64,000 bases of DNA from Ulota crispa (lineage: Eukaryota > Streptophyta > Bryopsida > Orthotrichales > Orthotrichaceae): assembly GCA_963920765.1 (NCBI GenBank), contig OY987250.1:1736001-1800000 (forward strand), in the 5' to 3' direction. Of the stretch, positions 16,499 through 26,666 are shown piece by piece. Each line of letters begins with the position of its first letter. Positions within the stretch are counted from its first letter, which is position 1. Both the position numbers and the translations under genes were made by a program. A model generated the notes under the pieces. It was given only the letters and a program-made list of their open reading frames with translations, had not been told where the DNA came from and made no database searches.

Positions 16499-16684
16499 TT
16501 AAGCATGGATGCAAACATTTTTTATTCAATGGATGACAAAAAATACACTTTGTACAATAAAAAAAAGCTGTTTTCCTTCTTCTTTTTAGAAAGGTGATCG
16601 TGGAGATATGGTTCATCATGGAAGGCAAAATACAATCTCATTGAATGCACTTATGTTTTTTAGTAGCCTAAGAGCATCCGCTGT

Positions 16685-16834
16685 CACTACAAGAAATTGT
16701 GTCCTAATTGACATGTCCAAATTGTTAAAACATGTCCAAAATGAGATTTTTTTGTCAAATTGGACAATTTCTGTAGATTTGGCCATATTGATTTGGACAT
16801 ATTTTTGTCATTTTGGACTTTTTGCCTTGTAGTG
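16685..16834. mobile_element. 150-bp CACTA-type MITE (CACTACAAG ends)
   Basis: It starts CACTACAAGAAATTG and ends CTTGTAGTG, flanked by TGT at 16682-16684 and 16835-16837. CACTA ends with a 3-bp duplication are diagnostic of the CACTA (CMC/EnSpm) superfamily. The interior repeats TGTCCAAATTG-like words. It has no coding capacity. Confidence 0.85.
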
Positions 16835-17318
16835 TGTGCACCCGGCATAAAAGCTGTCATCTAAATCCTGATCTATTAATAGCATATAGCTAATCACACA
16901 AAAATTATACAATTTGAAGAGCATGAAAATTTTCATTCTGAAAGTGCAATAAAATTTTGGTTTGGACATTGCATGATTTAGATATTTCACATCAAATGTT
17001 AGCTAACTTCCAAAAAACTTGGAGGCCCCTCCAAATCAAGCCTAAATAAGGAAATTTTAGTAAAGGGGTCGGCACATTTGTTGACCTCTTTACTAAAATT
17101 TCCTTATTTAGGCTTGATTTGGAGGGGCCTCCAAGTTTGTTGGAAGTTAGCTAACATTTGATGTGAAATATCTAAATCATGCAATGTCCAAACCAAAATT
17201 TTATTGCACTTTTAGAATGAAAATTTTCATGCTCTTCAAATTGTATAATTTTTGTGTGATTAGCTGTATGCTATTAATAAATCAGGATTTAGATGGCAGC
17301 TTTTATGCCAGGTGCACA

Positions 17319-17500
17319 CACTAGAAGAAAAACAAGGATAAACAACTCTACAAATCATAATGACTAGGTCACCAGAACTGCCTTGCAATTGCACAACAAC
17401 TGCACGACTAGATTGTAGTTGTGCAAATGATGTGGAGTTGTTGTGCAGTTGCAAGGTAGTTCTGGTGACCTAGTTGTTTATCTTTGTTTTTCTTCTAGTG
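17319..17500. mobile_element. 182-bp CACTA-type MITE (CACTAGAAG ends)
   Basis: The terminal inverted repeats start CACTAGAAGAAAAACAAGGA, and the 3-bp target duplication is ACA (17316-17318 and 17501-17503). Almost the whole element is a palindrome, including GTTGTGCAGTTGCAAGG words. A second copy is at 62054-62310. It is distinct in sequence from the MITE in the opposite arm of the host foldback. Confidence 0.85.
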
Positions 17501-17511
17501 ACAGCGGATGC

Positions 17512-18277
17512 CGTAACTATGAGATTAGCAAACATTGCGATAGGTCCCATGCTGTCTTTTTTGCAATTCTCATGAAGATAGCATGTAATAGTGACTTATG
17601 CAACTTTCAAAAATAGTATAAAATTGTGTGCACACTTGCCACTCCATTGTAACGCTACTAACTTGACATTTACAAGTTAATGTCCTCTTACATGGCATTT
17701 TCTATGCCTCTTAATTGAAAATAGCATAGCAATTTTTTTTATGTGTTATTAATAAAACATTAACAACTAATTCGACTCTTACATTTTAAAGTAATCTCTC
17801 AATGACTATGGTAATCTCCTAAGGCTCACTCTTGTACAAATCAACCCATAAACGCCCCATTTAGGCAATATCAAAAGACAAATCTTTGTTCAACATGTTC
17901 TAGAATTTACACTTGGACGAATTTCATCAATAAAAAAATTTAGGTGTTTGAAAAAAGTTGTTAATTCTCATATTATGTTGAAGCCGACAAAACTTTTATA
18001 TGATTTACATGGTACGTACACATTTGAATTTCTTTGTATGTATATATTAGATAGATTTTGCGAGTTGTATATGTTCTTAAACATGTTTGTGTTTGGATTC
18101 ATCTAGAAAAGATGTTTAGAGTTTGCAAATTTGTGAGCGTCATTGAATTAAAATCTACAAAACATACAATGAGTTTCAAACTATTTTAAAGATTTAATGT
18201 TAGTTAATATTGATCCACAAAGTCTGCTTTGCTTCAAACGTACAAATCCAGAAAGAACGGTTGCCTCCGTCCTTCAA
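17512..18277. other. AT-rich spacer, nothing recognised
   Basis: This stretch is AT-rich and non-coding, between the foldback and the next TTAA element. I found no open frame with family features and no clear inverted-repeat ends. Confidence 0.4.
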
Positions 18278-19198
18278 CCCCTAAATGTCCAAGGCACCAG
18301 ATTCTGGTGTCCAAAAAAAATCAGGCAATTTTGAAACTTTATTGAAGTTACATATTTTATTTTTTTGAGATTTGTTTTTTTGGAAATGTTGCGAGTTGAA
18401 GTTAGTTTCACCATTCAAATTCAACTTCCTCCATATCTTATTCCATTTGCTTTTAGTGGAAGGTTAACTACAAGCATACATTTTCTATTGTGAATAGTGT
18501 TGTGAATAGTGCCATGAATAGTGTAGTGAATAGCGTCACAGACCTATGAGAAGTTGCCACATTGAAAAAACAAGCATCAAGTTGAGCAAAAGGTGAAGAT
18601 TTTCCTTGGGCACTCCCTTGGGCAATAAGAGCCTTTTTATTGAAATTTTGACATCTAACAAAATCTTAAAGTGCTTTTGGACTAATTTCACTTGGAATGT
18701 CTTTGTTGTAGAAAATATAATCCTTTCACCATTGACTTTTCTTTCATTCATAATGATTTTTGGTCAATAATTGAAGTTGAATCTTTTTTTGTACTAGACG
18801 GTTGCATTTTGACAGTTGCGTTGCAAGCTCATTTGTGAAATTGTGATCATGGATTTAGAAGAGGGGCCATTGGTTTTGAAGTAACAACAATAAACACTAA
18901 AGCATCCTAAGTGGTTGTCTCCCAATTTTGTATCCAAAAGTTGCCAATTTTCATTAGAAGTTTTGGGCAGCTCAAAAAAGCAAAAAATTCCATACTCATC
19001 ATCATTCAATCACAAATATCTTGAAATTTGTGCGGCCATTTTGGATCCTTTTTGGGTAGTGCCATCTAGAAACCTTGAAGTTCAAGATTCAACGGTGACA
19101 ATTTTGTTTTGATGTTTAATAATGATTTTACAAGGACAATTTAAAAACTTCAAAACTACCTTCCAAAAACAAGAAAAACACCCTTGGGCATTTAGGGG
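18278..19198. mobile_element. TTAA-flanked element P3 (piggyBac-like non-autonomous)
   Basis: The left end is CCCCTAAATGTCCAAGG, preceded by TCAA (probably a mutated TTAA). The right end is CCTTGGGCATTTAGGGG followed by TTAA at 19199-19202. Sixteen of the first 17 bases of the inverted repeats match. The 921-bp interior is non-coding and includes a 12-bp tandem repeat at 18491-18538. Confidence 0.65.
18491..18538. repeat. 12-bp tandem repeat, four copies
   Basis: The unit GTGAATAGTGTT and close variants occur four times in a row inside TTAA element P3. Confidence 0.7.
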
Positions 19199-19247
19199 TT
19201 AAAGCTTTGAAATCCTTTTGTTGTCAAAGAAAAAAAAGTTACAAAAT

Positions 19248-19648: not shown

Positions 19649-20063
19649 TCTAACAAGGAAAAAAATAAAAATAAATTGGGGTAGTTCCATTGACTCCATG
19701 ACATACACAAATGTATGTTGGTTGTAAAGTTGACATAACCCTCGGTACCTTCACCGGCCACAATCTCTCAGCTTAGTCAAAGCAGGTGAAGCTCAGAGAG
19801 TCAGAACCCAAAAAAATCAAATACAATCAAAAACACCAAACTTCAAACCGGATAGAGTCGTTGTGAGTAATTGTGAAATCAGGAACGTGGCAACAACTTT
19901 GGTGCTAAGGTGGCCAATGTCAAAATGATGTAAAATAATGGCAAAAATAATTTCCAAATAAAAAAACACAGTTTGCACATAAATCCCCCAAAAATACGTG
20001 ATTATTATACTCTGCAAAATTACTGAGCATTAGTTCCTATCAGCAAAGTTTGAACATTTTTAA

Positions 20064-20998
20064 CCCCTAAAGGCCTAAGCTAAGTTTTTCATCAAAACTG
20101 CTCCAAAACTGTCATTTCTAGTACAAGTATCCAATTTTAGGAAAAAATCATTTTTGGATACATGTAACCATAAGATCTTGTAGTATAATTGTATCAAGAG
20201 TTGTGGAAAAAAATTCAGAAATTTATACCATGTAGGTTGTAAGATATTTGACTTTGAACTAACAAAAAGTCATTTTTTGTCTTTGCAAAAATCCAGGCAG
20301 CTGCACTTCTCAAGGTCATATTTGTATGAAAAAAGTTTCAACATGGTTGTAATTTTTTGGATTCATTCTTCAGGGTAAGTTAGGTATACACTTGAAAATT
20401 TTCAAATCATTTGGAATTGTACAACACATAGGAAAAAAATAGTAAGTAAAAAGAAGTAAAGAATGATTCAAAACCCTATATTGTTAAGAATTTAATTATG
20501 AAATTTTATATGTCAATCCCAATGGTTGTAATGTGGTAGTAAACAATCTACATCTTTTGGTTTTGTCTTTTTTCCAAACTATTAAAAATTGAATCAAACA
20601 TAGGGCTTAAAAGTTTTTTTTAGAGTAGGGAATCCATAACTACCCGCTAATAGAATCTCCTCATAACTTTCATCTCATTGATCAAAATGGAATGATTCAA
20701 CGCTTCCCAAGTATGTATAAATGTAAAGAATCAATTTCAAAAAATTAAAATTAAAAAAATGTAATTTTTGAAAAAGTTTTTTGAGCTACCTGGGCTGCCT
20801 TCCAACAAAGAAACAACACATCATGCAATAACTTTTGAACCATGTAGTCAAAAGTTATGAAAATTGTTGGGCCTTAAAGTTACTCCTTGGACACATCATA
20901 TGTGAAAATTTCAAAATAAAATAAAATGAAATCCCCATTGGTAGTGAGCTGCCCAAAATTGCTATGTTGCCAAATAAGGGTGTTTAGGCCTTTAGGGG
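20064..20998. mobile_element. TTAA-flanked element P4 (piggyBac-like non-autonomous)
   Basis: TTAA precedes CCCCTAAAGGCCTAAGC at the left; GGCCTTTAGGGG then TTAA (20999-21002) closes the right. The inverted repeats match over the first 15 bases. The element is 935 bp and non-coding. Its right 220 bp or so (from about 20790, including CAATAACTTTTGAACCATG and TTGGACACATCAT) is shared with element P5. Confidence 0.75.
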
Positions 20999-21002
20999 TT
21001 AA

Positions 21003-25941: not shown

Positions 25942-25945
25942 TTAA

Positions 25946-26666
25946 CCCCTAAAGGCCCAAGCACTGTTTTTTTGGTAAAATAGAGATTTTGGGTGGAATT
26001 TTTTATCTTCTTTTTTTGAAATTTTCACACATGATGTGCTCAAGGATTAGTTTAAAGGTCCAACAAATTTCATAACTTTTAACTTCATGATTCAAAAGTT
26101 ATTGCATGATATAATGTTTTTTTGAACTCTGAGCAGCCTGGGTAGCACATAAAACTTTTTTAAATATGACATTTTTTTGAATGTTTTTTTTTAGAATAGG
26201 TTCTTTAGACTTATCTAAATGTGGGAAGCTTTGAGACATTCAATTCTGTTCAACAAAATAAAAGTTATGAGAAGTTTTAGTTTGTGGGTAGATATGGAGT
26301 CTCTCAAAACCATACCTACCGGCAAACTAAAACTTCTTGTAACTTTTGTCTCATTTATTGGAATCAAATGATTCAAAGCTTCTCACGTACATGTAAGTCT
26401 AAAGAGCCTACTCCAAAAAAAATATTCAATTTTTTTTTATAGAGAAGTTTTTTGAGCTGCCTACGCTGCCTGAAGTTAAAAAAAACATCATATCATGCAA
26501 TAACTTTTTAACCATGAAGTCAAAAATTATGAAAATTGTTGGGCGTTCAAGCTATTCCTTGGACACATCATGTGTGAAAATTTCAAAGAAAAAAATAAAA
26601 ATTCCACTTGTAATGAGCTGCCCAAAATCCATTTTGTCCCCGAAGGGACAAGTGGGCTTTTAGGAG
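25946..26666. mobile_element. TTAA-flanked foldback element P5 (piggyBac-like)
   Basis: TTAA then CCCCTAAAGGCCCAAGC at the left; TGGGCTTTTAGGAG then TTAA (26667-26670) at the right. The whole 721 bp is a near-complete palindrome with its centre near 26310. Its right arm matches the right end of P4. Confidence 0.75.

Follow-up and report, generated by a model that had tools for sequence, protein, structure and literature searches.

A palindromic foldback MITE in the genome of Ulota crispa carries two CACTA-type MITEs of different families, one in each arm, and the 2 inserts (hereafter M1 and M2) occupy the identical base of the arm sequence, 13 bp from each tip. The element lies in a stretch of 64,000 nucleotides (the window; positions 1736001-1800000 of its contig) and was compared with the complete assembly GCA_963920765.1 (274.8 Mb, 157 contigs). 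The coincidence itself is real and improbable, and one locus cannot separate mechanism from luck. With a probability of roughly 0.6, we attribute it to 2 independent, ordinary CACTA insertions at a single site that the element presents twice.

Anatomy of the foldback and its inserts

The foldback MITE spans window positions 16672-17513 and is bordered by TAA on both sides (Table 1); the initial annotation had recognized the right element, with both ends set 2 bp short (16674..17511). Its arms are 96% complementary across 250 bp, with 12 bp between them, and the length without the inserts is 504 bp. When the inserts are removed, 237 of 244 aligned arm bases are identical (arm identity 0.971; the single gap in the 244-base alignment is a product of the left-flank joining), which agrees with the divergence of a few percent that had been annotated. 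Read on the minus strand from the tip inward, the right arm runs from CGGCATCCGCTGT through M2 into TGTGCACC, and the sequence confirms the annotated mirror-image placement of 2 different MITEs.

CACTA...TAGTG termini and a 3-bp duplication (TSD), the features used to assign a MITE to the CACTA (En/Spm) type, were found on both M1 and M2, and each duplication is the insert's own (TGT at M1 and ACA at M2), as had been proposed. The 2 inserts have 11 of their first 12 bases in common and no long internal similarity, and the near-identity of these 12-bp ends suggests that one transposase may have been common to both families. The foldback shows a TWA duplication and a GRGCATC-type TIR, which we take to belong to the Tourist/PIF-Harbinger family, and on these sequence features we describe it as a Tourist/PIF-Harbinger-like MITE. 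The presumed resemblance to that group comprises the 3-bp TAA/TTA TSD, the GRGCATCC tips, and the high copy number; unlike Tourist/PIF-Harbinger MITEs, the window foldback is inverted repeat over nearly its whole length. Two further readings of the anatomy were rejected: a single composite CACTA element extending from M1 to M2, for which the outer flanks (TGT and ACA) form no direct duplication, and a single MITE duplicated together with the palindrome, for which M1 and M2 are internally unrelated.

Table 1. Window coordinates of the foldback MITE and of the elements inserted in its arms.
Feature	Position	Strand	Remark
Left foldback TSD (TAA)	16669..16671	.	TAA/TTA also flanks many of the 41 other copies
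Left foldback TIR tip, GAGCATCCGCTGT	16672..16684	+	Last 3 bases are the left M1 TSD copy (TGT)
M1, 150-bp CACTA-type MITE, CACTACAAG...CTTGTAGTG	16685..16834	+	Best 40 copies scored of 888 first-look candidates
Right M1 TSD copy (TGT)	16835..16837	+	GCACC comes next
Remainder of left foldback arm	16838..17070	+	96% complementary inverted repeat
12-bp centre, between arms	17071..17082	.	
Right foldback arm, part inward of M2	17083..17315	-	
Left M2 TSD copy (ACA)	17316..17318	+	
M2, 182-bp CACTA-type MITE, CACTAGAAG...CTTCTAGTG	17319..17500	+	Best 40 copies scored of 435 first-look candidates
Right foldback TIR tip	17501..17513	-	First 3 bases are the right M2 TSD copy (ACA)
Right foldback TSD (TAA)	17514..17516	.	

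Target sites of the 2 families and of other foldback copies

First-look searches with 2 queries per insert returned 888 and 1222 candidates for M1 and 435 and 433 for M2, and the best 40 were scored in each search. Flanks were read for 103 other copies (56 M1-type and 47 M2-type), which represent the best-scoring copies and not a random sample; 98 of the 103 sites were nonredundant, and 20 further places lay outside the sample. The sampled copies of both families occupy scattered, mostly AT-rich sites. A 3-bp TSD was kept in 68 of the 103 copies, with scattered sequences, and none of the 63 nonredundant TSDs was TGT or ACA. The target profile, based on 41 sites, is nearly flat (≤0.08 bit per position) and contains no motif. 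By this weak profile, the window site is acceptable and not special, scoring 0.55 and 0.68 (0.44 for the average real site) and ranking in the top 15% (left) and top 11% (right) of positions across the foldback and its adjoining flanks. Its GC content over 23 bp is 0.70, compared with a mean of 0.34 (98 sites) and a maximum of 0.61 (100 sites) elsewhere. Because background DNA reaches a GC content of 0.65 at 2-4% of positions, the finding that 0 of 100 sites was as GC-rich hints at avoidance weakly at best; it gives no sign of preference.

In the genome search for the foldback, the best 40 of 3238 first-look candidates were scored, and 41 other copies, some of them side by side within one locus, were read. 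The typical tip in these copies is GRGCATCC adjoining TAA or TTA, and arm-to-arm identity ranges from 0.856 to 0.996. The initial annotation had proposed that CACTA MITEs might favor this site across foldback copies; the tips of these 41 copies yielded none, at least 3 arm ends lying beyond the stretches read, and partial M1 matches in 2 of the loci (L095 and L098) fall outside the arms. The tip sequence GCATCCGCTGTGCACC is rare, with 3 exact and 6 one-mismatch places genome-wide and 0 for the reversed control. Six of these 9 places are palindrome tips in which the site is empty (L068, L003, both ends of L149, L145, and L146), one is ambiguous (L144), and 2 are without a palindrome (L147 and L148). 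The uninterrupted sequence GAGCATCCGCTGTGCACC is present in L068 and L149. Since natural empty sites exist, both M1 and M2 look like additions without loss of target sequence.

Nine near-exact sites are unfilled, as opposed to 2 filled ones, both in the window element. A sequence hot spot acting as a strong general preference, one of the explanations entertained at the outset, was accordingly abandoned in view of the flat profile, the lack of TGT or ACA among the TSDs, the outlying GC content, and the unfilled TIR copies elsewhere. Inheritance of the pair from a source copy at another locus is not supported either: the exact filled junction occurs at 2 places genome-wide, both at the window locus. 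With up to 2 mismatches, 47 places were recovered (31 for the reversed control). Of these, 30 were read, 2 of them being the window locus itself; in the 28 others, out of 45 junction-like places elsewhere, no CACTA MITE was found at the junction, either by visual inspection or by a stringent scan that required intact ends and a TSD.

Proposed independent insertion and competing explanations

According to the reading we prefer, a Tourist/PIF-Harbinger-like foldback MITE would have inserted at TAA, and 2 CACTA MITEs of different families would later have entered by ordinary cut-and-paste, one per arm, each producing its 3-bp duplication. The same base would have been struck through the presentation of one sequence twice by the arms, plus luck, perhaps aided by a local feature of the tip that the general target profile of the families does not resolve. 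The perfect CACTA ends and 3-bp TSDs of M1 and M2 argue for independent insertions, as do their membership in dispersed families, the uninterrupted versions of the site in other copies, the profile score slightly above that of the average real site, the similar order of the MITE and arm divergences, and the carrot precedent discussed below; the small chance term, the atypical GC content, and the 0 of 63 TSDs with TGT or ACA argue against. We infer both the independence of the 2 events and their order.

Given 2 insertions in the 504-bp element, a mirror match has a probability of approximately 1/500 under uniform insertion and approximately 1/420 when weighted by the GC profile of the families (the mirror index in this calculation is off by one base, which leaves the order of size unaffected), in agreement with the annotated improbability of the coincidence. 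The GC-weighted figure for this very site, 0.00036, rests on a GC class without an observed insertion. A strict scan detected 1 intact CACTA MITE with a TSD in 147,298 sampled bases outside the element, and, of 29 other M1 copies for which long flanks were read, 3 sit in palindromes. From a density of 1 to 5 per 147 kb, this palindrome fraction, and the candidate counts, roughly 0.001-0.005 mirror coincidences would be expected genome-wide for the 2 families. Despite such small odds, the case alone is no compelling reason to invoke a mechanism, because it was singled out by a reader seeking oddities among many possible ones.

The initial annotation had also dated the events as recent, and the divergence data fit this roughly. 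Near-private differences, found in at most 1 other copy of the family, amount to 5/150 in M1 and 3/182 in M2, and the arms have diverged by 7/488 per arm; the 3 values are all of one order. M1 departs from its family majority at 16/150 positions, exceeding each of the 56 other copies, and 9 of the 16 differences are common to at least 2 of 30 copies. Homogenization of the arms is not claimed from the age of the MITE: the first figure of 16/150 fell to 5/150 when variants shared with other copies were excluded.

Insertion guided by the palindrome or its tip, also suggested in the initial annotation, is a rather unlikely alternative. A cruciform, a four-way junction 13 bp away, or a TIR-bound protein would here attract the CACTA transposase, and both arms would be struck symmetrically. 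Such guidance would account for the low probability as well as for the atypical base composition, the window site ranking within the top 4 of 481 positions for GC content, in an element whose overall GC is 35%, and being disfavored by the AT-rich habit of the families, although the general target profile already places it in the top 11-15%. One M1 copy (L044, ~1479-1500) lies 13 bp inside the motif GAGCACCC, matching the window offset, close to the border of a different, unrelated palindromic element, but the motif cannot clearly be identified as the terminus of that element; one M2 copy (L130) lies 15 bp inside GGGCATCC, both motifs being of the form GRGCAYC. The resulting preference for a 13-bp TIR offset is borderline: 69 sites gave 2 motifs where 0.37 were expected (P 0.055), and 98 sites gave 2 where 0.53 were expected; motif matches near the insertion sites of L067 and L132 were left out of the count, their offset not being inward. 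Two of the 3 palindrome-nested M1 copies mentioned above are located 21-27 bp from the edge, yet none of the 3 has a mirror insertion, and the failure to find CACTA MITEs at the tips of the remaining 41 foldbacks also speaks against guidance. In a coupled version, which we consider improbable, an extruded palindrome or protein-bound tips would guide the CACTA transposase such that the symmetric bases are filled together, for example, by one insertion per cruciform stem, after which the loops would be repaired independently and M1 and M2 would remain in opposite arms.

A single unusual insertion would likewise explain the shared base and TSD if it had been copied from arm to arm, with its TSD, by gene conversion and if one copy had then been excised and the element of the other family captured in the same gap. 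The near-private fraction of M1 (5/150), somewhat above the arm divergence (7/488), would fit a later homogenization of the arms, but this age signal is weak, as 3 of the 56 other M1 copies have an equally high fraction. The scenario requires 3 steps plus a footprint-free capture, and a trace of a second MITE copy is absent from both arms; the only case recovered of one and the same M2-type MITE in either arm of an inverted pair, at C1:1608473-1611168, has the appearance of a simple inverted duplication. We hold this sequence of events to be distinctly doubtful. Palindromes are hard to assemble, and 2 haplotypes or copies could have been joined artificially; with 7 differences between the arms, intact matching TSDs on both MITEs, and a locus of approximately 0.85 kb inside a 19-Mb contig, an assembly artefact appears highly improbable.

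Known systems and neighboring elements

Alternative insertion of MITEs at one position has a precedent at the carrot locus BS2.2, where, in the available part of PMC3695323, the Stowaway MITEs DcSto3 and DcSto4 occupy exactly the same position and further one-location insertion cases are cited. Both there and here, 2 MITE families have entered the exact same base of a target that exists in more than 1 copy. The carrot target copies, however, are found in different plants, and the elements are Stowaways with the TSD TA (PMC3695323), whereas the window case involves the 2 arms of one palindrome and CACTA-type elements with little sequence preference. In our view, the window case is a variation on the theme of MITEs that share one insertion position; its anatomy is striking and its mechanism unproven. 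AT-rich TSDs of 3 bp are a familiar feature of CACTA elements, as PMC4938662 illustrates: pvCACTA1 resembles M1 and M2 in its CACTA...TAGTG ends, 3-bp TSD, small non-autonomous form, and mostly AT-rich targets, and differs from them in its TIRs of 145-158 bp and typically WWW TSDs, M1 and M2 belonging to other families and the window site having the TSD TGT in GC-rich DNA.

For plant LTR retrotransposons, the consulted sections of PMC6911290 describe a palindrome preference within 20 bp that is slight overall and lacks significance for the subset of nested elements (p 0.50). This suggests that local DNA structure can influence insertion; the elements there are retrotransposons, and mirror positions are not addressed in those sections. 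The portions available of PMC3544897 (Hsmar1) and PMC12477314 do not support the idea that cruciforms guide CACTA elements, and no report of a palindrome with 2 different MITEs at its mirror positions was found among the papers listed in searches of the open PMC literature. If recurrent, mirror-paired insertions would constitute a natural record of palindromes extruded in vivo and would also show a eukaryotic transposase reading DNA structure; as a single case, the window element offers a sharply defined, testable coincidence of the same base, the same TSD, 2 families, and an unusual base composition.

Insertions of another kind also occur in the foldback family. In at least 4 foldback copies, one arm is broken by a CCCCT-ended element at TTAA (L003, L070/L149, L072, and L092), and the mirror arm is filled in 0 of these four, a weak control given that the copies were selected by retrieval. 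The L003 locus (contig C4, ~5652893-5654770) comprises 2 adjacent foldback copies, the second with an insert of ~0.9 kb in its right arm. Apparent copies of CCCCT...AGGGG elements, usually at TTAA, are present in the window at 18273-19203, ~20060-21002, and 25942-26628, the extents of the latter 2 being inferred from partial matches; the copy at 18273-19203 matches the L003 arm insert at 88% identity across 933 bp and has TCAA as its left flank. Related elements interrupt one arm in L149, L072, and L092, with a duplication of TTA or TTAA.

In the inverted pair on C1 (L184-L187), the same M2-family MITE is present in both arms and the 301-bp flanks that were read are identical (301/301, twice), which points either to a recent duplication in inverted orientation or to an artefact of assembly. 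In L096 and L101 (also L007), the palindrome extends past the usual tip, with a TTGGGAAATAAT... stretch on both sides, and the arms of L096 and L101 are 99.6% and 99.0% identical, respectively, far above most foldback copies.
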